DNA of 38,946 bases, taken from the NCBI GenBank assembly GCA_018816555.1, contig JAHIVT010000131.1, forward strand, positions 1 through 38,946, read 5' to 3'. This stretch comes from Pseudomonadota bacterium (GTDB lineage: Bacteria > Desulfobacterota > Desulfobulbia > Desulfobulbales > SURF-16). Positions 2,939 through 19,776 of the stretch are shown one piece after another. Below the pieces are notes generated by a model. That model ran no database searches. It saw only the letters and a program-made list of their open reading frames with translations, and was not told the origin of the DNA. Made by a program: the position numbers and the translations under genes. Positions within the stretch are counted from its first letter, which is position 1; the number at the start of each line of letters is the position of its first letter.

Positions 2939-3655
2939 TTATTGAACCGCTCCCCAAGTAGCAGTTGGAGCGCCGCCACCAGCAGCCCCGGCAATATTAT
3001 TGGTATTGTCAGTAGCTGCTATAACTGCAACAGGAGTAGTAAGATTCACCAAACCAGCGGAAATCGCCTCCTTGCCCCAAACAGGATTACTGACAGAATA
3101 AAGCACATTAGCCACATCGGAATCAGACCCGTAGGCTGTGTCCCCTTTATCATGACGGGTATAAATAACATTAGAGCAACCGCCACTGGGGCAACTTCCT
3201 CCGGTCACAGCACTTTCAGAAGCTAAAACGGCCATTTGAGCACCGATCCCAAGCGGTACAGAAAAGGTTTTAACGGATGTGATATGTGTTCCAACGATCC
3301 TGCCACCTGCAACAGTTGCCGTTGCGCCAATTGACTGAGCAGCTACCAGAGTTGAAACAGCCTGTTCGGCGGCAGTAATAAGACCTTGCCCGCTAACAGC
3401 AACAGCAGCAAGAGTAGCTGCTGCTGTCTCAGTATGACCATAACAACCCAACTCAGAATTCAGATCAGCCTGTCCGGATACTGCCATTTTATTCATTGCC
3501 TTAGCATTTGCATTGCTGGCGCGGGTCCGGTAGGCCGCAAACTGCGGGATGGCAATGGCCGCCAGGATGCCGATGATGGCCACAACGATCATCAACTCGA
3601 CAAGGGTAAAACCTTTTTGGTTATTTTTCTGCATTTTCTTTAACAATGAAATCAT
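2939..3655 (-). CDS. pilA: Major type IV pilin (prepilin PilA)
   Basis: 238 aa. The class III leader (15 residues, ending QKG) is cleaved before FTLVELMIVVAIIGILAAIA, the conserved hydrophobic pilin helix with Glu at position +5. The mature pilin of about 223 aa has a Gly/Ala/Thr/Val-rich globular domain with cysteines at ELGCYG and GGSCPSGGCSN, which could form a disulfide loop. The start ATG at 3655 has a perfect AAAGGAGG site six bases upstream. The longer frame to 3730 is rejected because it would begin at the predicted transcription start. The gene is monocistronic: a sigma-54 promoter lies upstream and a strong terminator downstream. It is far longer than the roughly 60-aa Geobacter PilA-N, so it is an ordinary long pilin. 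Confidence 0.95.
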   Translation of the reverse strand: MISLLKKMQKNNQKGFTLVELMIVVAIIGILAAIAIPQFAAYRTRASNANAKAMNKMAVSGQADLNSELGCYGHTETAAATLAAVAVSGQGLITAAEQAVSTLVAAQSIGATATVAGGRIVGTHITSVKTFSVPLGIGAQMAVLASESAVTGGSCPSGGCSNVIYTRHDKGDTAYGSDSDVANVLYSVSNPVWGKEAISAGLVNLTTPVAVIAATDNTNNIAGAAGGGAPTATWGAVQ

Positions 3656-3740
3656 GGAACGCCTCCTTTGTTTTATTAAACTGCTAGTTATGATTTTCTT
3701 GTCATCCATGACATTTTTACCAAGTTTCATTTGTTGTTAA

Positions 3741-3756
3741 AGCCAGTTCCGTGCCA
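3741..3756 (-). promoter_or_regulatory. Sigma-54 (-24/-12) promoter of pilA
   Basis: The minus strand reads TGGCACGGAACTGGCT. This is the TGGCACG -24 element at full consensus and a TGGC -12 element, with the essential GG and GC at the correct 10-base separation. The predicted start is near 3729, giving a leader of about 75 nt. RpoN plus PilR control of pilA is established in Pseudomonas, Myxococcus and Geobacter. Confidence 0.85.
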
Positions 3757-3883
3757 GAGAAAAATCTCTCAGAACATTTCTCATAACTATCAGTTTTCAT
3801 ATAACAAAATATCGTTTACCATTCCATTTTCATCTCTTTCAAGCAGTTCATTTATCACTTCATTCATGCTTCATTTATTTTAG

Positions 3884-3920
3884 TGACAATTTTTGTCAGT
3901 GCAGATGACATATTTTGTCA
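3884..3920. promoter_or_regulatory. Twin palindromes: candidate enhancer (PilR-type) sites for pilA
   Basis: Two 15-bp inverted repeats of the form TGACA-N5-TGTCA lie at 3884-3898 (N5 = ATTTT) and 3906-3920 (N5 = TATTT). Their centres are 22 bp apart, about two helical turns, and they sit about 155-190 bp upstream of the predicted pilA start. That is the expected distance for a sigma-54 enhancer-binding protein. PilR of Pseudomonas recognises TGTC-containing elements. The sites lie between pilA and the end of pilY1, so pilA is the only promoter nearby. Confidence 0.7.
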
Positions 3921-3999
3921 AACCCCTGGCAAGCCGTTGATTAAAAAAACTGTTACATTCTCATATCGTCAGCGGCATAAGGGACAACGCTTTACTCCA

Positions 4000-6900
4000 T
4001 CATCTTTCAAACCAGGCGGCTTTACCGCTTCTTATAGTCTGGGCGGTATCGGCGGTCTGACGGAACACATCGCCGGTGGACAGCTGGGTAAAGACACTAA
4101 CCGTGTCATCGCCGCTGCCGGAGCCGGAATGAATGGCCGGCGAGGTTGCCATGCCGCTGCCCAGGTCAACATATTTTAAAGCCCTGTACTTCACCTCACC
4201 ACCGATGATGACGGTCTCGGTGCCGAAAATCGTCGGAGCCGGATAGGCGGTGCCGGTCTTGTAATAAAGGCCGTACAGCCGGCTGTAACCTTCGCCGACA
4301 CAAGGGTCATCGCTTGGCTGAAATACCGAGGTAAACAGAATTCCGCCCAGCAGCGCAGAATGTCCGAGACTGCGGGTCGCCGGCGACACTCCGGCCGTGC
4401 CGACAATGGGCGGCAAGTCGAGGAACCATCCTTTCTTCTGTTGATCAACCTCCTCAACGAGCGTCGGGAAATCGGTTATCTGCGCGCCGCCTACTGTTGC
4501 CGATGGTCCATTTTCTATGGTCTGATCCTGGTCGGTGTACACCTCAATATCGGTTACATCAATCAAATCACCGGCGATATTGACAGCGGCGCCCGAACCA
4601 TCATCCTTTACGCCATAAAGGGTCTGAATGGCGATACTCGTTTTATCCGCCAAGACGTAATAGCGTCCTGTGCCGAAATAGACCCACTTGTTGTGCAGAT
4701 TATCAATACCGACCGCCGGCTGGCCCACAACCGGCTGATTGGCAAGAACCAGGGTCGTCGGCGCGGTCCAGAAAGCCGGGGAGCTGTTTTCGTTTAAGGC
4801 AAACCGCATAAGCCGCCCGGATGTGGCGTTGACATCACCGACCAGCCCGAAATAAGCAGTATCAGCCTGGTAATCGAGATCCCAGTCAACGGTAACGGGG
4901 CTGCCCATAAAGCTGTTGGCTACCGCCGTGTCGCAGGTGATGATCTTCATCGCCGATGCGCCGACTGTCGACAAACTGCAACCGGTGGGTGCGCCGGTTG
5001 TGACCCCGGGGGTCACAAGTTCGGCCAGATCATAAATGTATACCTTGGCAGTCTGAGTGCTGGCCGCGGTTTGCAAGCTATCGGGGCCGTTGCCGAAAAT
5101 CATATACCATTTATTGTTATCACCAAAAGCCATGGTGGCCGGATAGACTAAGCTGAAACTGCCGTCAGGAACCTGCAACTCGGCCAGCAGTTTAGGCTCG
5201 CTCTCCGGATTGGTGATATCAAAAATCACAAAGGCGGAACGCATGGTTTTATCATTGGCCTGATGTGGCGGTCCTAAGCCGTCTGCCGCCGTGTCAATGA
5301 ACATGGCACCGCCGCCCAACCGCATGCCGACGACCATCAAGGTCCCCCAGCCGTTAGGATGATCAGCGTCACTTGCGAAAATCTTGGCATCAAAAACCCG
5401 GGGTTTACTATCCACATAATACACATGGTTGTAATTCGGGTCTTTGAGCCACTTCAGATGCGGCAGAAGATTCATGGGGGCATATGCCCAGATTTCACTG
5501 CCGAGCGGATGGGCCGTGGCAGCAGCGCCGGTAGCGCAATTCTTGCCTGTGGTCAGATAGCTCACCTTGTCAACCCCGGCATCATTGACCACCCCGTAAA
5601 ATCCGGCGTTAAAGGCATGCAGCAGACCGTCGTTGCCACCCACATAAGCCATTATCCTTCTGTCGGCATATCGGGCACGAAAGGCGGCATACGATATATC
5701 GTTGTAGAGGATGTTGAATGCCTCCTGGGGGGAGGAAACGATGGTCGGCGTGGAGTTGATGATGTCGCCAAGCCGCATTATTGAGGCTGCGGCATCGTCA
5801 GCGGTATACTTGACGGTTCGGGTACGGAAACCGGGAATTTCAACGCCGCGGATGTAATTAACAATATTTTCGGCGTCGGCCTGGGTGGCGACATCAAAAA
5901 AACCGTAACTGACTGATCCGAACATCGTCTGTTCAAAATCCACATACTCGCTATTGTCGACAAATGAGTCATAATCGCTGTCGATCCAGGTCATGATATG
6001 ACGTCCGCTGCTTGCATTGGCGCTGTAAATCCGGTTTGATTTTATTTCAGCATCCGTCAATGTTTCCAAGTACAGCTTTTCCCTGGCGTTCCATAAATAA
6101 CCGATTTCATACAATTCTTTTTCGACAAACTGGAAATTTGACAGCATCAGACGGTCACCGGCCTCAATCCAGGCAACCACCGGCGAAACCACAAAGCTCA
6201 GCACTCCCGAATCTGCCAGGGTCACAGAGGAGTTACTGCTCCCGTCAGCCCCGGTTGTCAGGTTGGCTACCTTCCAGTCATCATAGGTATTACCCGCTGT
6301 GCCGTTCATATTAAAGGTGGAGATTTTTACCCGCTCACAGCCGGTGAAAACATCATCTTCAACAGTGACCTCTTTTTCACCGGTGTTTGCCAGGGTAATG
6401 TTGTGAACAATGGTGCTGTCGCCGGCGGCGGAGAGACATTGCACATGCCAGCTGCCGTAACTTTTGCCCTGTTCTCCTTGCATGTGATAAGTGGAAAGGG
6501 TCATGTCATCACCCACAGCCGCCCACTCGCCTGCCGGATCGATGATAAAATCAACGGTCCCGCCGTCAGCCAGGGCAAGACTGGTGCTGCTTCTGGCGCT
6601 GAGTACTGCTGTGGAATCATAGATCTGCCAGTTGTCAAAAATATCCCCGGCAACACCCTGCATACTTCCTGCGGTTATTGCCAGTGAAACCTCGCCGGTA
6701 TCCGGATCATAGGCGGTCACCGTGCCATTCATGGAATAAGGATTAATCGTCATATGCCGCGCATCATAATCAGATATCACTCCCTCAATGGAATACGGTT
6801 CAAGAGTGACTGTCCCGGCATTATAAGCAGTGACAACACCTTCCATGAAATAAGGGTCAAAGGAATCGGGATCGTCACTGGTGAACACCTTTATGCGGGT

Positions 6901-9900
6901 TCTGTTTTCCGTCTCATCGAAATATGTCTGAACAACCTGATCAATATCGTAATTGTCCAGTATGCCGTTTGGCGTACACTCTCCACCGACTCTATCGTCG
7001 GTTGAACGGCAATCCTCCCGGGTAAAACCATACCTGTCCAGCCAGAGGGCATGAACGGTGCCGATCCAGCTCGCCTGTCTGCCATCCAGATCCTTTTTCA
7101 AAGGTTCGAAATATGCCTGATAGAGCGCGCCTTCTCCCCTGACATTATTGGAAACAACAGCTGCCGCCGTACCAGACGAGGTTCTCTCTAGAATGGCATC
7201 AAAAACATTTTGCAATGCGGTTTCAAGTTCTTGGGGATTGCTTGCATAATAATAATTATCCGGGATGCCGTCAGATCCCTTTTCACCGGTCGAATTGATA
7301 ACACTGTCCCATTCCTCAGTCAGATCAGGCAGATCATTATCGTTCTTGTCTTCGAAACCGCCCCATTTAGCCGCATACCAGAGAGGATCTTCCAGCAGGC
7401 CGGCTGTCGCACTGCCAAGTGTATATGTATTGGAACTGAAACCGTCACCCATGTTGCATTTATGTGTAGTTGGGCAATCAGTTACACCTGCTAAAGGATC
7501 ATCATAGACGAAATCATTTGTCCCTGAATGGATATGCAGACCATCCTGGGTGGTGCCGCTGATCACATATCCATTACCAATGCTGTATCCCAGATTTTGA
7601 AGTGTAATGGCTGTAGTAACAGTAATTTGGGTTGCAGTAATTGTGTACTCAATAATCCCGCCGGCATCGAGGTCATAGTCATTACCCTGCAGACTGTCTT
7701 CCCAGATCACCAGGAATTTGCCGTGTCCAACCCCGGCCACCTCGGTGTGCGGCTCCACAATCTTGAAATCAACCATGGTGCAGCCATAATCGCTCTTATC
7801 GTTGTCAATACAGGATGGCAGAAGAGTGACCTTGCTGGTGGAGCCGGGAACCGGTATCTCGATTACCGGATTTCCCGATGCCAGCCTCACCGCATAAGTA
7901 TCAACCTTCTGAATGCCTTCAAGTCCCCTGCCCCCTGCCAGTGTGGCCGGTCTGATGTCATTCACGTGTGAGTACCAGGCAAGTCCGGCGATACGGAAAC
8001 CTCCACGGAGGTCAGGTCCTTCCGGGCAAAGGCCACGAACCTCGCCCAGGTTGGTAATTGCTTTTGCCGTGCACTTACGGTCCTGGCTGGCGCCGCTTTC
8101 ACCGACAAACCATTTCTTGTTCGGATCCGCCGCATCGGGATAAACACCTTCTATTCTGCCGATAATCTCGGTAAGTTCCCGGGAATTTCTGGCAGAACCG
8201 AGATCCTTGACAACACCGAAGCTGTTCGTATCAAGCTCATCCTTAATTTTAGCAGGATCCGTAGTAAAAACCGTATCAGCAGAGATAACGCTGGAGTTGA
8301 AGTTGACCACATTGAGCCGTGCACAGTAATTATCAGAGTCAAGAGGATCAAGCCAGACTCCGGTGTTATAATTGATTCCTTCAATAAACTGCCCATCCCC
8401 GGATTGATAATCGGTTGGAGCATTTTCCCCGGCAAAATAGCGAAGCCCGCTCAGATAAATTTCGGCAAAGGGATTGCCCCAGTTATGGCACTCGCTGTCA
8501 CTGCTGTCCCCGAAAAAATTGATGGATAGCGGGCAGTTGTCACCTCCGGAGGAAGTGACATTGTACGTCCAGCTGCTGTATTTATAACCATAGATACGGA
8601 ACAGGCTCCAAGTATTGATAATTCCCTGAGACTTGACAGCCTGGGTGATAGGCCCGCCCGCTGAGGAATAAACCCGTTTGAAGGTGCCGTCGCCAATATG
8701 TATATCCTTAACTGGATCATGCCAGTCATCCTGATCAACGAAACCCACATCCGTTCCGCCATCAGCCACACCGCCATCATCACCATCACAGTCTCGGCCC
8801 AGATTAATCTCACGACACATGCCGTCCATGCCGTCGCTGTTGGCGACCTTCTGCACCATTTCACCGCCCCTGGTGGCCTTGCCGTAGGTGCCGGCGATCA
8901 TACCGAACATGAGTCTGTCCTCATCACCGTAAACCTGCAGTAATCCGATCGGCTTGAGGTTGCCATAGGGGTATGCCTTGCACTTTTCCGTTCCCGAAAC
9001 CTTGTCCGCAACCCCATTACCATCTGAATCAATATCAGGGATACAGACATGAATCCTGGCCACGTAGTCATTGAGTCCTAAACCGACATCCGCTTTTATC
9101 GGATTATCCTGTGCGGCATAGACACCTGAGGAATAAGGATTATTGTAATTTTTGCCGTTATTGCCCGGATCCTCTTCCTCCCACAGACATTGATGCACCT
9201 CGCCTGCGCTCCAGAAGGCATAATTACCCTGGGCGGCCCTGATAAGCGGCGGATCAGTAACATTCTGGGAAAAAATATTGGCCGTAGCGGAATAGGTGAC
9301 ATTGCAAAGCGTTAAACCGACCCTGGTATGATTGGTGATATCCCCATCATCTATGGCGATGGTGCTTCCTGCCCCTCCGACTCTCTTTACATCTACCGTG
9401 AGGGGATTCCCCGCAGTACTAGGAAAGGCTGTCACCCACCCTTCTATAAAATGTGTAGAATTGCCTTGATCAATAACGCTCACATAATCTCCGATCTTTA
9501 TCATACTCCCTGTCAAATCGGTGTTAAAAGTTTTTGACCCTGTGCCGATTGTAATAGCGGTTTTGTTGAGACCAGTGGGCTCAGAGGTATTGACGGTGAA
9601 AGGAGTCAGGTCATTGACATCAGCTCCCTCATAATATTTGGCAAAGGCATGGATATCCGGCGGCAGATAGGCCCGCTCCAGGACGGTATTGGTGGAGGTG
9701 TCAACCCGGCGGTGTCCGCCGAACAAAATCTTGCGGATGGCATCTATGCGGGTCATGGAAGCCCAATTCAGGAAATTGCCGCTCCAGTAGGCGTCATTTG
9801 CGCCGGTACAGTACTTATTGGCCGTGTAGGTCACCGGCTCAAATCTTTTATTCACTGAGTCATAGTCATAGCACTTATGACTATCAAAATAGCCGTAGTA

Positions 9901-10185
9901 ATCGATGGAATGCTTGTAGGTTATATCAGGTTCTCCGTCCCCATCGAGATCCGAATAATCGTTATAGGCCTTGAAAAAAAGCTGATGATCATTGGATGAG
10001 TTAATGATGACCTGCGGACTGACAACGCTTTCAATAAGGCTGATAGGCGTTGAGGTAAACTCGGCCATGGTGTGACTGGAAACTTCGGCCAGAGCTATCG
10101 TGGATGTTGCCCACAAGGCCGTACCGATAACCATTGTCTGCAGCAGGTATTTCTTATGAGTAAATCTCAATAGAGTTGTAATCAT
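4000..10185 (-). CDS. pilY1: PilY1-family type IV pilus tip adhesin, giant
   Basis: 2061 aa, much longer than Pseudomonas PilY1 (about 1160 aa). The start at ATG 10185 has GGAGG five bases upstream; longer in-frame starts overlap pilX. A signal peptide (about residues 1-33, ending ALA) leads to a large N-terminal domain with calcium-type loops (DLDGDGEPD near residue 75; DIDSDGNGVAD near 390). I see no clear vWA MIDAS motif. Residues about 1108-1348 hold an inserted repeat block. DSDYDSFVDNSE near 1400 is another EF-like loop. The C-terminal beta-propeller (Neisseria PilC/PilY1 domain) begins around 1500 with YVGGNDGLLHAFNAG. It is the last gene of fimU-pilW-pilV-pilX-pilY1. PilY1 primes pilus assembly with minor pilins and mediates adhesion. 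No convincing terminator follows it. Confidence 0.93.
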   Translation of the reverse strand: MITTLLRFTHKKYLLQTMVIGTALWATSTIALAEVSSHTMAEFTSTPISLIESVVSPQVIINSSNDHQLFFKAYNDYSDLDGDGEPDITYKHSIDYYGYFDSHKCYDYDSVNKRFEPVTYTANKYCTGANDAYWSGNFLNWASMTRIDAIRKILFGGHRRVDTSTNTVLERAYLPPDIHAFAKYYEGADVNDLTPFTVNTSEPTGLNKTAITIGTGSKTFNTDLTGSMIKIGDYVSVIDQGNSTHFIEGWVTAFPSTAGNPLTVDVKRVGGAGSTIAIDDGDITNHTRVGLTLCNVTYSATANIFSQNVTDPPLIRAAQGNYAFWSAGEVHQCLWEEEDPGNNGKNYNNPYSSGVYAAQDNPIKADVGLGLNDYVARIHVCIPDIDSDGNGVADKVSGTEKCKAYPYGNLKPIGLLQVYGDEDRLMFGMIAGTYGKATRGGEMVQKVANSDGMDGMCREINLGRDCDGDDGGVADGGTDVGFVDQDDWHDPVKDIHIGDGTFKRVYSSAGGPITQAVKSQGIINTWSLFRIYGYKYSSWTYNVTSSGGDNCPLSINFFGDSSDSECHNWGNPFAEIYLSGLRYFAGENAPTDYQSGDGQFIEGINYNTGVWLDPLDSDNYCARLNVVNFNSSVISADTVFTTDPAKIKDELDTNSFGVVKDLGSARNSRELTEIIGRIEGVYPDAADPNKKWFVGESGASQDRKCTAKAITNLGEVRGLCPEGPDLRGGFRIAGLAWYSHVNDIRPATLAGGRGLEGIQKVDTYAVRLASGNPVIEIPVPGSTSKVTLLPSCIDNDKSDYGCTMVDFKIVEPHTEVAGVGHGKFLVIWEDSLQGNDYDLDAGGIIEYTITATQITVTTAITLQNLGYSIGNGYVISGTTQDGLHIHSGTNDFVYDDPLAGVTDCPTTHKCNMGDGFSSNTYTLGSATAGLLEDPLWYAAKWGGFEDKNDNDLPDLTEEWDSVINSTGEKGSDGIPDNYYYASNPQELETALQNVFDAILERTSSGTAAAVVSNNVRGEGALYQAYFEPLKKDLDGRQASWIGTVHALWLDRYGFTREDCRSTDDRVGGECTPNGILDNYDIDQVVQTYFDETENRTRIKVFTSDDPDSFDPYFMEGVVTAYNAGTVTLEPYSIEGVISDYDARHMTINPYSMNGTVTAYDPDTGEVSLAITAGSMQGVAGDIFDNWQIYDSTAVLSARSSTSLALADGGTVDFIIDPAGEWAAVGDDMTLSTYHMQGEQGKSYGSWHVQCLSAAGDSTIVHNITLANTGEKEVTVEDDVFTGCERVKISTFNMNGTAGNTYDDWKVANLTTGADGSSNSSVTLADSGVLSFVVSPVVAWIEAGDRLMLSNFQFVEKELYEIGYLWNAREKLYLETLTDAEIKSNRIYSANASSGRHIMTWIDSDYDSFVDNSEYVDFEQTMFGSVSYGFFDVATQADAENIVNYIRGVEIPGFRTRTVKYTADDAAASIMRLGDIINSTPTIVSSPQEAFNILYNDISYAAFRARYADRRIMAYVGGNDGLLHAFNAGFYGVVNDAGVDKVSYLTTGKNCATGAAATAHPLGSEIWAYAPMNLLPHLKWLKDPNYNHVYYVDSKPRVFDAKIFASDADHPNGWGTLMVVGMRLGGGAMFIDTAADGLGPPHQANDKTMRSAFVIFDITNPESEPKLLAELQVPDGSFSLVYPATMAFGDNNKWYMIFGNGPDSLQTAASTQTAKVYIYDLAELVTPGVTTGAPTGCSLSTVGASAMKIITCDTAVANSFMGSPVTVDWDLDYQADTAYFGLVGDVNATSGRLMRFALNENSSPAFWTAPTTLVLANQPVVGQPAVGIDNLHNKWVYFGTGRYYVLADKTSIAIQTLYGVKDDGSGAAVNIAGDLIDVTDIEVYTDQDQTIENGPSATVGGAQITDFPTLVEEVDQQKKGWFLDLPPIVGTAGVSPATRSLGHSALLGGILFTSVFQPSDDPCVGEGYSRLYGLYYKTGTAYPAPTIFGTETVIIGGEVKYRALKYVDLGSGMATSPAIHSGSGSGDDTVSVFTQLSTGDVFRQTADTAQTIRSGKAAWFER
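6142..6864 (-). repeat. Tandem repeat block inside pilY1
   Basis: Two kinds of repeat follow each other in the protein. First come three short units of about 20 residues opening with FMEGVVTAYN, SIEGVISDYD and SMNGTVTAYD (about residues 1108-1170). Then come three units of about 59 residues opening with SMQGVAGDIFDNWQIY, HMQGEQGKSYGSWHVQ and NMNGTAGNTYDDWKVA (about residues 1171-1348). All share an aromatic/Ser-Met-polar-Gly opening. The block sits between the N-terminal domain and the propeller and looks like a spacer or extra binding module. Confidence 0.75.
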
Positions 10186-10201
10186 GACAGCCTCCATCAC
10201 A

Positions 10202-10834
10202 TCAATCAAAATTGCAGTCAGCCGAACTGGCATTGTTAATCAGATGACCGCTGAGTTTCCATTCAAGTCCGACAACTGATTCACTGTTTCCCAGACCTCT
10301 ATGCTGCGAGATGATCGTATACAGCACATGAGTGCCGCCTGCAGCCGAGGAGCTGCCCAGCCCTTCATATCCGGCCACCATCGCCAGTCCGCTTCCTGTG
10401 GTTGCCACAGTTTTGCCGACAATGGTCATATTGGTATGGGAATCGTTGTCACTGGCATTACCCGGATAAAAAGCCACGTCCCGCACCACGTCACTCGGCA
10501 GCGGCGCAACTCCCCCCCCCGGACTGGCAAAGGTCAGATTCAGCACTTCAACTTTTCCGATAATCCTTTTCCCCGAGCCGGCCGGATCTTCAGTAAAACC
10601 GCCGGAATTTATACACAGGGCATTCTCATAGGTCACCCTGGAACCAAGCTCCGCTCCGCCGTCAGCCTGGTAGAATGTCTGCTGATGAACCTTTTCATTA
10701 TTGGCAATCTGCATATCGATCGTTGAGGTTGTCGTTGCGGCAATACCGATAACCAGCAGGATGAGAAGAATGAGCAGCGAGGCAATAAGTACAAAACCTC
10801 TTTCATTGCTTAAAATAGATTCATTTTTACACAT
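10202..10834 (-). CDS. pilX: Minor pilin PilX
   Basis: 210 aa. The N-terminus ERG|FVLIASLLILLILLVIG is the PilX_N pattern: a prepilin-like cleavage site and hydrophobic helix without Glu+5, as is usual in PilX/GspK-type tip pilins. The later IDMQIANNEKVHQQTFYQADGG stretch (about residues 40-60) contains the conserved A..A..G helix end of PilX proteins, and the remainder is a small globular domain. It lies 16 nt before pilY1 and 9 nt after pilV, so it is clearly co-transcribed. PilX, PilV, PilW and FimU form the priming complex that carries PilY1 at the pilus tip. Confidence 0.88.
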   Translation of the reverse strand: MCKNESILSNERGFVLIASLLILLILLVIGIAATTTSTIDMQIANNEKVHQQTFYQADGGAELGSRVTYENALCINSGGFTEDPAGSGKRIIGKVEVLNLTFASPGGGVAPLPSDVVRDVAFYPGNASDNDSHTNMTIVGKTVATTGSGLAMVAGYEGLGSSSAAGGTHVLYTIISQHRGLGNSESVVGLEWKLSGHLINNASSADCNFD

Positions 10835-10843
10835 AATGAGCCC

Positions 10844-11287
10844 TTACACACTATCCGCCTTGATATAGGTCATGGTTACTGATTTTGTTGTTCCCTTTTC
10901 CTGCGTGGTGATGATGACGTTTATGGTTTTGACGCCGATAAAAGGGGAATCTACCGAAACATTCCAGTAGATGGCATAATTGCCGTCCGGAGAGGTCAAG
11001 TTCCCGTCAGCACCAGGTACGGTATCGGTAAGTCCTGCATCACCGTCCCCGTCCCCATCATTTAAGGCGCTGTCGTTATAATCGAGCCCCAGCACAGATT
11101 CAACTCTGTCGGAAGCCCAGGAGGTTGATTCGGTTATACGGTTGGCGGTGGAATTTCCACTGATTGCAGTGATCTGCATGACATTAGCGGACAGGATCCC
11201 GATGGTCAGCACGCAAATGGCTATTAAAACCTCAATAAGGGTGAATCCTGTCTGATTGTTGCTTAAATGATTGTCAGCGCATCTCAT
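10844..11287 (-). CDS. pilV: Minor pilin PilV
   Basis: 147 aa. The prepilin site QTG|FTLIEVLIAICVLTIGILS and the following helix place it in the PilV/GspI group. An acidic loop DGDGDGDAGLTD (about residues 78-89) looks like a calcium-binding turn inserted in the globular part. ATG 11287 has a GGGGGGG ribosome-binding site six bases upstream. It lies between pilW (16-nt gap) and pilX. Confidence 0.88.
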   Translation of the reverse strand: MRCADNHLSNNQTGFTLIEVLIAICVLTIGILSANVMQITAISGNSTANRITESTSWASDRVESVLGLDYNDSALNDGDGDGDAGLTDTVPGADGNLTSPDGNYAIYWNVSVDSPFIGVKTINVIITTQEKGTTKSVTMTYIKADSV

Positions 11288-11303
11288 AGGCAGCCCCCCC
11301 TTG

Positions 11304-12101
11304 TCACACCAGGCCCATGTTACGGCAGTTCACTGTGATCTTCAGCAACCGCCGCCGGAAATTAACGGTAGCGGTACCGGTAAACGGCCCCCAGACGGTG
11401 CCGCTGAGAGCACCGCTGGTAAAAAATGCATCATTTGAGGCCGGCAGATACACGCGACTATTGGTGTAATTTTTGTCGGACTTCTCTGTAATGACAAGAA
11501 TTGTAATGCGAACATTTCTGATATCCGCCAACTGAGCGGCGGTTGGCGTCGTGGTCTGGCTGCCGTCATCAAGCACATATTGAAATTCGATATTCTCAAC
11601 ATTTTCGGCAACCGTTTGCCAATTAACGGCGCCTGTCGAAAATCTCTGCAGATTGGTGCCATTAAGACGATATGCAATCCGTTCCATGTCAGACATGTCA
11701 ACGGTACCATTGCCGTCAACATCCTGGGTAACGGCGTCAATGGTCCCATCGCCATCAAGATCAGCGGTAAAGGCTATCTGGGTTGCATTGGTATTGACCG
11801 GCTCAGCATCAAAATTTATGCCATTAACAAAACCTGTGCCGGCGGAACCGTCAGGATTATAACCTGCCAGTCTGATGTCCTTTGACAGCATGTCGAGCCC
11901 GATGCGGACGTTCTGCTGCATCTCGGAAACCTGCTCCTGAGCAACGTAACTGTTCTGCTGTGACTGAAAGGCGGAATAGATCGAGGCAAGAACAATACCG
12001 GAAATCGCCAGAGCCACCATCACCTCGACCAGGGTGAAGCCGCAATCGCCGTTGACAGCCTCCGGACAATTATATTTTTTATTAAATCCAGGTAATACCA
12101 T
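11304..12101 (-). CDS. pilW: Minor pilin PilW
   Basis: About 265 aa. The leader ends at GDCG, before FTLVEVMVALAISGIVLASI, the type IV pilin helix. Downstream, QQNVRIGLDMLSKDIRLAGY is the conserved PilW/GspJ signature helix. Two consecutive calcium-type loops, DLDGDGTID and DVDGNGTVD, occur near residues 125-150. The start is ambiguous: ATG 12101 lies inside the end of fimU and has no good Shine-Dalgarno, while TTG 12116 in the same frame has GGAGG eight bases upstream. Either way it overlaps fimU by 20-35 nt and is translationally coupled. Confidence 0.87.
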   Translation of the reverse strand: MVLPGFNKKYNCPEAVNGDCGFTLVEVMVALAISGIVLASIYSAFQSQQNSYVAQEQVSEMQQNVRIGLDMLSKDIRLAGYNPDGSAGTGFVNGINFDAEPVNTNATQIAFTADLDGDGTIDAVTQDVDGNGTVDMSDMERIAYRLNGTNLQRFSTGAVNWQTVAENVENIEFQYVLDDGSQTTTPTAAQLADIRNVRITILVITEKSDKNYTNSRVYLPASNDAFFTSGALSGTVWGPFTGTATVNFRRRLLKITVNCRNMGLV

Positions 12102-12660
12102 CTTTACTGACTTCAAGCCTGAGACCTCCACCTGCGGAAACAGTAATTTTATACCACCGGTTGTTATTTCTGATTGTCACATTGCCCGTCTGGCTGCCGG
12201 CCGTAACCCCTTTTGCCGTATACGTGATCCTGGAAGCAAAACCGAAAGCAGCATTCACCAGCGAATTCTGCCTGGACATTGTCACAGTATTTAGAGTGAG
12301 CTCTCCTCCATCCTGAATACCGTTGTTGGCTACACCGCCGCCCGCGCCATCATCAATAAACACGGTATAGCCGCCGCCTATAGCCGGATAGACAACGGTC
12401 GTAAAACTCAGGCAGACCAAGGTGTTCCCCTTGATCGCCTGCAGCCTCGCCTGCTGCATGTCGGAATAGATATCACGTGCCGCGGCTTTCAACCGATAAT
12501 CATCGGCAGAAGTTAAAAGATTCGGAAATGATATTGCCACCAATATGCCAATGATACCGATAACGACAAGAAGCTCTATCAGGGAAAATCCATATTCATT
12601 TTTTTGCAATTTGCGACTTCGCCCAAGATATCTCATGTTAAAAAAATTTTCGTAAATCAT
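12082..12660 (-). CDS. fimU: Minor pilin FimU / GspH-like
   Basis: 192 aa. The prepilin site NEYG|FSLIELLVVIGIIGILVAIS is followed by RLKAAARDIYSDMQQARLQAI, the GspH/FimU-type helix. The rest is a beta-rich globular domain ending at a Trp-containing strand, as in GspH-like pseudopilins. ATG 12660 is preceded by an AGAGAG ribosome-binding site. It is the first gene of the minor pilin operon and probably connects the tip complex to the PilA fibre. Confidence 0.87.
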   Translation of the reverse strand: MIYENFFNMRYLGRSRKLQKNEYGFSLIELLVVIGIIGILVAISFPNLLTSADDYRLKAAARDIYSDMQQARLQAIKGNTLVCLSFTTVVYPAIGGGYTVFIDDGAGGGVANNGIQDGGELTLNTVTMSRQNSLVNAAFGFASRITYTAKGVTAGSQTGNVTIRNNNRWYKITVSAGGGLRLEVSKDGITWI

Positions 12661-12714
12661 ATTCTCTCTATCGTGATGCACAAATCATACCCTCATACGG
12701 GGGCTCATATTTAG

Positions 12715-18382: not shown

Positions 18383-18916
18383 TCAGCTATTTTTCCGTCT
18401 CAACGCAACCAGTCCTGAAAGACCAGCACCGAGAAGCCAGACTGCGCCGGGGATTGGCACGGCTGCGCCAGTAAAAGTAGCACCTTCCGTGGTGAAAGAA
18501 GCAAGATAAATTGTCCCAGGATACATATTCGAACCAGCAAGATCAGTAAATTGTATCGCATCAAAACCAAAAATTGTACCAGTATAATCAATTGTTAAAA
18601 TTGTACCATTCTGCAAAGGAGCCAAAGGGGCACTTAACAGCAGAGGTCCCCAGTCAGCAGCACCAAATTTTGATATATCACTATAAGTATCCGCCAACCA
18701 CACACCTGTGGTAGGTATGGCATCTCCTAATGTGCTACTATTTTTCACAAAATCATTACTCACATCAAGAAAAAAAGTAAACCCAGCAATACCACTTCCA
18801 GCAACCTCATCTAACCCATTAATATCAATATCAAAAGTAGATGCCTTACTTGATGTTGATACGGTTAATAGAGAAAATAAGAACACACCAAAAATTAATA
18901 AACTTTTTCTTAACAT
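18383..18916 (-). CDS. Secreted protein with VPLPA/PEP-CTERM sorting signal
   Basis: 177 aa. An N-terminal signal peptide (cleavage after about KAS, residue 26) is followed by a roughly 120-aa beta-rich domain of no recognisable family. The C-terminal anchor is VPIPGAVWLLGAGLSGLVAL and ends RRKNS. That is the VPxPxAVWLLGSGLxGL-type membrane helix with a basic tail used by exosortase/EpsH systems. The ATG has a GAGGGG site six bases upstream. It lies 21 nt after the dockerin-tailed gene and is visibly more A/T-rich than the housekeeping genes around it. The protein is probably processed and displayed or released in the extracellular matrix; no exosortase gene is in this window. Confidence 0.85.
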   Translation of the reverse strand: MLRKSLLIFGVFLFSLLTVSTSSKASTFDIDINGLDEVAGSGIAGFTFFLDVSNDFVKNSSTLGDAIPTTGVWLADTYSDISKFGAADWGPLLLSAPLAPLQNGTILTIDYTGTIFGFDAIQFTDLAGSNMYPGTIYLASFTTEGATFTGAAVPIPGAVWLLGAGLSGLVALRRKNS

Positions 18917-18937
18917 TTTAAACCCCTCAAATCAAAT

Positions 18938-19663
18938 TTACATTAATGATTTTATACAAAAAAAGTCAGAATTAGTGATAAGATTATCTGCATTACAATC
19001 TGCATAAACCTTATAAATTCCAGTCGTTATTAAAGTCTTGGCTGCAAAGTAATCAGAATTAGTAATAAGATGATCCGCATTAGCATCCCCACGTTCACGG
19101 ATAATAACACTAGTCATATCCAACGATGCTGTATTATCCAGCACAGCCTCACCAGCGGTGACAAAGTTAGCAAACACCTCACCATCTGTTCTTATGACAC
19201 CAAGTCCAAGTGATGTGGAACCGAAATATGCTTCAGGAGAAGTCCCTGGATCGGTACTGTCTGTTCGGATAAACGTTGCCTTGCCGATGAGTTTTCTTGC
19301 CCCTGTCACACCGGCGGTGGGATTACCCTCATCGATCTTGCCACAGATAAAAACAACGGAACTGCCGGTATCCTGGGGATCCTGATACGGATATTTGACA
19401 GAGGTTGTCCCAAAATACCAATCATCAGTATTTTTCACAGCTGAAGTTAATGTAAGTTTCGTGTTGTCGTATGGCAACTGAACCCCGGCACTGACCAGAG
19501 GATCCCCAGTGATATTCGCATAAATATAAACAACCAGATCCGTATCTGTATAGGCCCCTTCGGCATACACATCCACATCAGCCGCCATTGCCGTGATACT
19601 CGAAGCAGCTATAACAGCTGAAGAAAGGATTGCCCCAATACCGCATAGTGTTTTCTTCTTCAC
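18938..19663 (-). CDS. Secreted cohesin-like protein with C-terminal dockerin-like repeats
   Basis: 241 aa from GTG 19663, which has a GAGGGG site at the right distance; the frame stays open to 19888 but that part lies across the predicted promoter. A signal peptide (about residues 1-28, ending AMAA) precedes a beta-sandwich domain with cohesin-like character (VDVYAEG...LVSAGVQLPYDNTKLTL; residues about 29-180). The last 50 residues hold two dockerin-type calcium loops, DANADHLITNSDYFAAK and DCNADNLITNSDFFCIK, a duplicated F-hand arrangement as in type I dockerins. Having both partner-type modules in one small protein suggests self-assembly or binding to another cohesin. It is the first gene of a two-gene operon with the CTERM protein. 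Confidence 0.75.
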   Translation of the reverse strand: MKKKTLCGIGAILSSAVIAASSITAMAADVDVYAEGAYTDTDLVVYIYANITGDPLVSAGVQLPYDNTKLTLTSAVKNTDDWYFGTTSVKYPYQDPQDTGSSVVFICGKIDEGNPTAGVTGARKLIGKATFIRTDSTDPGTSPEAYFGSTSLGLGVIRTDGEVFANFVTAGEAVLDNTASLDMTSVIIRERGDANADHLITNSDYFAAKTLITTGIYKVYADCNADNLITNSDFFCIKSLM

Positions 19664-19685
19664 CTCAGCCCCTCCCTCTATTTGA

Positions 19686-19714
19686 TCCCCAACCTGCATC
19701 CCAGTATTTGGGGA
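19686..19714 (-). other. Leader hairpin upstream of the dockerin gene
   Basis: TCCCCAA and TTGGGGA pair across a 15-nt loop in the predicted 5' leader, ending 23 nt before the GTG start and about 13 nt before its ribosome-binding site. It could protect the mRNA or modulate translation. It does not match the c-di-GMP (GEMM) riboswitch consensus. Confidence 0.45.
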
Positions 19715-19760
19715 GAAACATGACACTTTAAGACTGCCAGAATTCATTAGATTAAAACCA

Positions 19761-19776
19761 AGCAAATCAGGTGCCA
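19761..19776 (-). promoter_or_regulatory. Sigma-54 (-24/-12) promoter of the dockerin/CTERM operon
   Basis: The minus strand reads TGGCACCTGATTTGCT, against the consensus TGGCACG-N4-TTGCW. Only one base departs from the core, and the GG and GC dinucleotides are correctly spaced. The predicted start near 19749 leaves an 86-nt leader. It is the second -24/-12 promoter in the window after that of pilA. Confidence 0.8.

Follow-up and report, generated by a model that had tools for sequence, protein, structure and literature searches.

The role that cohesins and dockerins play when no cellulosome is involved is poorly understood. It is already known that these domains occur outside cellulosomes, and that PEP-CTERM genes can be driven by sigma-54. 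In Ruminococcus flavefaciens, ScaC serves as an adaptor and ScaE is a sortase-anchored single-cohesin scaffoldin (PMC5301203). Non-cellulosomal cohesins and dockerins have been reported in syntrophic sulfate reducers and ANME archaea, where adhesion and aggregate formation were proposed (PMC10553843, PMC9012536). PepA and related PEP-CTERM flocculation proteins are under RpoN, with a TGGCAC -24 promoter (PMC9850573, PMC1569441). The cohesin specificity of a cellulosomal dockerin is set at residues 10 and 11 of its loops, and where these are the same in the two loops, binding in two orientations is possible (PMC8063739).

Here we describe a gene pair in a 38,946-nt stretch of DNA (the window), which comes from a 4.9-Mb draft genome that is about 97% complete. 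Protein A is a predicted secreted cohesin-dockerin protein and protein B, encoded directly after it, is a predicted exosortase substrate; loci of relatives are denoted by L and a number. As in the ScaC/ScaE system, a one-cohesin adaptor with its own dockerin would be combined with a separate single-cohesin anchor fixed by a sorting enzyme, a plan seen in relatives L084, L091, L098 and L099. Unlike that system, the present pair is Gram-negative and uses an exosortase (PEP-CTERM) instead of an LPXTG sortase; its putative adaptor and anchor lie in one sigma-54 operon, and its dockerin varies together with the anchor body, as one cassette. Moreover, window B is not recognisable as a cohesin, and cellulase cargo is not in evidence here. 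The sulfate-reducer proteins come from the same bacterial phylum as the window and are likewise non-cellulosomal, but in the available parts of the sulfate-reducer and ANME reports the domains are identified by annotation, and neither a partner anchored by an exosortase nor symmetric loops nor exchange of a cassette is mentioned. The PepA system shares with this locus a PEP-CTERM gene with a TGGCAC -24 promoter; a dockerin partner is not described there, and the PepA matches here (34.7 bits for L089 B and 21.6 bits for window B) fall far under the cut-off of 80. Type I dual-mode cellulosomal dockerins (PMC8063739; 2vn5) have, like that of A, two calcium loops with near-identical recognition residues, whereas the dockerin type of A occurs once per genome and is paired with a neighbour gene rather than common to many enzymes. 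In the open-access literature we found no paper in which an exosortase substrate is combined with a dockerin partner (the single one containing both words is on ANME archaea), and no description of an exosortase-anchored partner, paired exchange or a symmetric private dockerin.

Gene A (18938..19663, minus strand, stop included) encodes 241 aa from a GTG start at 19663, and both this start and the N-terminal sequence are kept in relatives. It is preceded by a ribosome-binding site, GGAGGGG, at 19669..19675 (minus strand); a GGAGGG-type site also precedes GTG in L051-L053. The predicted signal peptide (aa 1-27; 19583..19663, minus strand), MKKKTLCGIGAILSSAVIAASSITAMA, is followed by ADVD, with cleavage between AMA and A. 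Gene B (18383..18916, minus strand, 177 aa) follows after 21 nt (18917..18937, minus strand), and its product has a signal-like N-terminal sequence alongside a C-terminal CTERM motif. The VPLPA-CTERM sorting signal (18392..18460, minus strand) matches TIGR03370 at 26.5 bits against a cut-off of 25.35, in agreement with an earlier note, made from the DNA letters alone, that the next gene 21 nt on carries such a signal.

That note also claimed for the pair its own -24/-12 promoter, an A/T-rich composition and a terminator. A perfect sigma-54 box, TGGCACCTGATTTGCT, lies at 19761..19776 (minus strand) and is the sole zero-mismatch match in the window, where weaker matches are no more frequent than expected by chance. 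An identical box is found in L051 and L053, and TGGCACATGAATTGCT in L052; in these three congeneric loci the full match stands 91-113 nt before A. The region upstream of A at L047, compared with those of L051-L053, contains no sigma-54 match. The TGGCAC-N5-TTGC pattern of the sigma-54 PEP-CTERM regulon is present upstream of A, and a sigma-70-like site, TTGATA-17-TATAAT, with an 11/12 match, is located at 19888-19860. GC content is 0.34-0.45 over the pair vs 0.49-0.55 in the flanking genes. Promoter and composition were thus borne out; the terminator was not, as a search for one serving the pair found 0.

The pairing extends well beyond the window. A is present in 4/5 other genomes of the genus and in two other genera of the family, and occurs sporadically elsewhere in the phylum: matches were found in 9/395 genomes sampled across the phylum, including that of the window and L094, whose match is a B-type cohesin, in 6/46 genomes of one other class and in 1/85 of another. 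Named relatives come from metagenome-assembled genomes, including Desulfurivibrio sp. and a groundwater deltaproteobacterium. Within the genus, A occupies the same site, between leuCD-like genes and an RNA methyltransferase-like gene. A CTERM gene directly follows A, at a distance of 16-69 nt, in the window and at 14 further loci (15 in all; two of the 14 are near-identical), which upholds the suggested operon of A with an exosortase substrate. This count leaves out L047, L050 and L090, two of which are at contig ends; the next gene at L090 is LamG-like and runs off the locus. At L051, L088 and L093 the gene immediately before A codes for a dockerin-tailed protein (Pfam E 0.017-0.059), and at L090, L091 and L096 a similar dockerin motif, without a Pfam call, is visible upstream of A.

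The C-terminal domain of A (aa 192-241; 18941..19090, minus strand) is a predicted type I dockerin with two symmetric loops, DANADHLITNSD (aa 193-204) and DCNADNLITNSD (aa 222-233). Both follow the pattern of a 12-residue calcium loop, with D at 1, D/N at 3, D/N/S at 5 and D at 12, a pattern found in all relatives examined, with an insertion in loop 2 of L088. Pfam Dockerin_1 (PF00404) matches window A with E=6.5e-4 and 20.3 bits, below the cut-off of 22.9, which is exceeded by L096 (52.1 bits), L090 (35.5), L099 (34.4), L093 (28.4) and L088 (23.6). Because the same domain clearly passes the cut-off in relatives, the sub-cut-off domain of window A can be read as a real dockerin, as the earlier note had proposed from its two loops. 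In a VIA comparison, the tail of the A model (pLDDT 49.6) superimposes on the Clostridium cellulolyticum dockerin 2vn5_D with Z 7.3, 1.6 A over 52 residues.

The symmetry of the two loops points to the binding mode. Residues 10-11 of loop 1 and loop 2 read NS/NS, VQ/VQ, GA/GA, LV/LV, PA/PA, NA/NA, MP/MP or LT/LT, depending on the protein, and about eight dockerin specificity types are found in the family so far. At positions 9, 10, 11, 13 and 14 in 17 proteins, the loops agree at 4.29/5 within a protein vs 0.74/5 between proteins, a within-protein agreement reached by 0/100,000 permutations. Loop identity is mostly not due to recent copying, because 36/97 loop-identical residues differ in codon; in most loci it appears to have outlived silent drift. 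Matched loops with different codons are, at the level of sequence, what marks a dual-mode dockerin. For most loci, gene conversion was rejected as the chief source of the symmetry, given the abundant synonymous differences; it may have acted in L084, L093, L096 and L097, whose two loops hardly differ in their codons. The A proteins of L096 and L097 (1309-2076) are near-identical, with bodies 97% identical, and carry a T-to-S change at position 11 in both loops with few silent differences; this double change may reflect gene conversion or coupled selection. Separately, window A has two cysteines in loop 2, C223 (18995-18997) and C236 (18956-18958), at positions 2 and 15; cysteines at these positions are also found in L051, L052, L053, L088, L089 and L092 and never in loop 1, and the pair may form a disulfide that staples a single calcium loop. 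At L090 (1318-2259) and L050 (136-1158), A is a variant whose body and dockerin are separated by thrombospondin type 3 repeats. These two loci belong to different families and have a common NFADLA/DFADLA dockerin type; the downstream sequence there is too short or not CTERM.

The body of A (aa 28-188; 19100..19582, minus strand), taken in the earlier note for a cohesin-type sandwich, has no Pfam match in the window protein (Cohesin PF00963, cut-off 24.1 bits). Distant A proteins do match Pfam Cohesin (L099 7.5e-5, L093 2.9e-4, L098 5.5e-4), the best score being 23.4 bits (L099), under the cut-off. The AF2 model of A is poor (pLDDT 49.6); a Foldseek search with it puts cohesins at the top (E 3.6e-4), and in a second comparison, with VIA, the best match is the cohesin 4uyq (Z 7.8, 3.1 A over 116 residues). 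Sandwiches of the CBM and AP2-mu kinds come near the cohesins (Z about 7), and since these other sandwiches also reach Z 7, the fold search with this model cannot by itself decide between a cohesin and another sandwich. More informative is a two-step profile comparison via the B cohesins of relatives: A bodies match the CTERM-anchored B cohesins (E=3.3e-10, prob 96.7), which in turn match Pfam-recognised cohesins (E=2.2e-7, prob 93.6). Window A body also aligns with L094 B at z 7.9. Compared directly with Pfam cohesins, A bodies give a weak signal (E=0.001, prob 21), which appeared only after distant members had been added; profiles at the genus and family level failed (E=0.12). A single-sequence PDB search with A returned chance matches only, and PDB searches with A-body profiles did not find a cohesin. 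On the profile chain, the body of A is most plausibly a cohesin homologue, so that the proposed cohesin body stands through its relatives and lacks a Pfam match of its own, and the AP2-mu and CBM identities of the model, which are of the same sandwich class, were set aside.

The fold scores also speak for reading the body as a carbohydrate-binding or other sandwich module, with A binding an exopolysaccharide matrix and being fixed to the cell by its dockerin. In favour of such a role, the exosortases are found among exopolysaccharide genes, and one relative locus is followed by a polysaccharide-export gene. This reading is at odds with the profile comparison, which ties the A body to cohesins, and with relatives that match Pfam Cohesin and not a CBM family, and we regard it as highly improbable.

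Among the B proteins of relatives, Pfam Cohesin scores B of L094 at 30.7 bits (over the cut-off, 4.3e-7), of L084 at 23.7 (6e-5), of L099 at 21.2 and of L098 at 21.1. The AF2 structure of window B (pLDDT 42.9) is too poor for structure search. As window B, searched together with L089 B, has no homology to cohesins detectable by sequence, its role as dockerin receptor is inferred from co-variation with the dockerin and from the relatives whose B is a cohesin. At L094, the cohesin-CTERM protein (1345-1950) lies beside another CTERM gene, and an adjacent cohesin-dockerin gene is absent in the available sequence.

Co-variation was assessed in 14 non-redundant loci, which give 91 pairs. Dockerin similarity reaches 0.5 or more in 9/91 pairs, and it is precisely these 9 that have B scores of 137-456, all others scoring 96 or less; thresholds, clades and groupings were picked post hoc, after inspection of the data, and 6/9 concordant pairs come from one clade whose bodies are also similar. 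In partial Mantel tests, dockerin and B correlate given the body (0.33, p=0.0024), and body and B given the dockerin do so at 0.16 (p=0.07); judged by these sequences, body similarity of A is no predictor of B type. The window and L051 are body sisters (79% identity) whose B bodies compare like shuffled sequence (z 0.7). The window and L089, from different families and with a body identity of 53%, agree both in dockerin type and in B type (B z 19.9), and L053 with L092 repeats this pattern across families (B z 21.3). Conversely, L088 and L092 are congeneric, with 83% body identity and unrelated B bodies (z 0.2). The body tree rejects a window+L089 clade (p=1.5e-5) and an L053+L092 clade (p=3e-5), groupings chosen, as said, after inspection. 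In the dockerin tree the window groups with L047 and L089, with support of 86/82 (not strong); a genus clade is marginally rejected (p=0.04) and window+L051+L052 is not rejected (p=0.08). L092 has the B type of L053, but its residues 10-11 are VQ, as in L051/L052, vs GA in L053. Taken together, the strength of the dockerin-B association suggests B as the anchor of A, in line with the original proposal of anchoring by the exosortase substrate.

These data bear on a different arrangement, in which the dockerin of A binds A's own cohesin to form head-to-tail chains and B merely caps or anchors them; such chains would correspond to the self-assembling matrix put forward in the earlier note. A cohesin-like body and a dockerin do lie together in one protein, and A is the sole member of its body family in the genome. 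A self-partner, however, should co-vary with the dockerin, and B does so instead: between the window and L051 the body is 79% identical but the dockerin 47%, with recognition residues NS vs VQ. Such self-polymers are decidedly unlikely.

The pattern along the DNA suggests how dockerin and B came to vary together. Between the window and L051, identity is 96% for leuC, 92% for leuD, 91% for upstream DNA and 79% for the A body, drops to 47% for the dockerin and 32% for the B body, and returns to 84% for CTERM and 85% for the methyltransferase. L088 and L092 show the same course (A body 83, dockerin 41, B body 26, CTERM 81 and gene C, a further CTERM gene after B, 84%). GC3 of A body, dockerin, B body and CTERM is 0.41/0.18/0.23/0.48 in the window, 0.78/0.44/0.39/0.80 in L089 and 0.73/0.41/0.31/0.67 in L092, and over the 14 loci it falls by 0.15 in the dockerin (p=0.004) and by 0.17 in the B body (p=0.0001). 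The exchangeable block would span the dockerin of A and the secretory/body part of B (18461..19090, minus strand). Identity and GC3 show the pattern expected from exchange of a putative cassette made up of dockerin and B body and flanked by the conserved A body and CTERM.

Because the dockerin and B are DNA neighbours, linkage alone could move them together. The main rival to binding is that the dockerin end and the B body were co-exchanged through adjacency only, the dockerin being a calcium-stiffened tail or binding something else, and B varying independently through surface exposure or phage escape. A contiguous low-GC3 block between conserved flanks is just the trace that simple recombination would leave. 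Yet recognition residues that are equal in both loops with different codons suggest selected binding, and joint inheritance has lasted across distant families (window/L089; L053/L092) despite the chance for recombination to part them. The loop symmetry and the shared types across families thus speak against adjacency as the sole cause, which we consider rather unlikely.

The reading that we favour, with about even confidence, is that A acts as an adaptor with a single cohesin and plugs by its dockerin into B, which is anchored by an exosortase, and that this plug-socket pair is swapped as a cassette. A would be secreted, and its C-terminal dockerin, with two equivalent recognition faces, would plug into the B body with calcium. 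The exosortase would sort B and anchor it at the surface or in the matrix. The dockerin-B pair would be private, each lineage having its own type, and the dockerin-coding end of A would be replaced together with the B body as one DNA cassette, while the conserved cohesin of A would stay free for other dockerin-tailed exoproteins of the cell. The operon would then be a minimal adaptor-plus-anchor scaffold, switched on by sigma-54. That co-variation means binding, that the cohesin of A holds cargo and that B is anchored at the surface are steps we infer.

An extension of this scheme would make the cassette a polymorphic lock-and-key, with allelic types circulating horizontally across the phylum and each cell displaying only its own-type A and cargo. 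We regard this extension as unlikely; if true, it would amount to a device for kin recognition, or for privatising public goods, made from cellulosome parts. The family offers a compact case, with one adaptor, one anchor and one candidate cognate pair per genome, in which the role of non-cellulosomal cohesins and dockerins can be tested by swapping dockerins and B bodies between types. If the pairing is true, it would also be a source of new orthogonal binding pairs.

The rest of the genome provides candidate machinery for the adaptor-anchor scheme. As the earlier note had advised, we searched it for exosortases and for other cohesins and dockerins. There are two exosortase loci, both adjoining polysaccharide genes. 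The exosortase gene on C76 scores 391.8 bits against the XrtD cut-off of 400 and 117.8 against the general exosortase cut-off of 105.55, and a regulator near it is GlrR-like, under the PrsR cut-off. VPLPA signal matches with E of 1 or less number 27 in the genome, ten of them over the cut-off. At least six other proteins have dockerin-like loops, mostly C-terminal, including an FG-GAP protein, a subtilase and a MAM-domain protein. A cellulosome would call for a multi-cohesin scaffoldin and dockerin-bearing glycoside hydrolases; a Pfam cohesin search of the genome found none, and the carriers inspected, a non-exhaustive set, include no glycoside hydrolase. The earlier note would have given up the cohesin-dockerin reading had the body fold proved unrelated and the genome been free of other cohesins and dockerins; the outcome is mixed: Pfam recognises no cohesin in this genome, but dockerin carriers are present, and the body is tied to cohesins through its relatives.

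The two exosortase loci differ in layout. On C76, the exosortase and EpsI-like parts are joined in one 511-aa protein; at the second locus, C151 (L103 12590-14340), they are separate genes, with a UDP-GlcNAc 2-epimerase-like neighbour.

A second CTERM gene, C, follows B at L084, L088, L092, L096, L097, L098 and L099, and is absent behind B in the genus of the window. Its family (motif FAIFDD) comprises six loci (L084 1359-1946, L088 3-554, L092 14-562, L096 81-659, L098 2880-3431 and L099 2130-2690) and a near-identical seventh (L097). Gene C of L098, the sole one searched, has no Pfam/NCBIfam family found. At L084 the polysaccharide-export gene comes after gene C, and at L098 a sigma-54 activator lies upstream in the opposite direction.

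Elsewhere in the window, positions 2939-12681 hold a type IV pilin cluster with pilin, PilX, PilV-like, PilW and GspH/FimT-like genes and a 2077-aa protein in the PilY1 position, for which a Pfam match is absent. Positions 11661-11795 were rejected as a dockerin despite an over-cut-off score, because they encode a calcium-type insertion, rich in aspartate, within a minor pilin resembling PilW. In the PilW gene (11304-12131), two motifs of this aspartate-rich calcium type score as dockerin/EF-hand.
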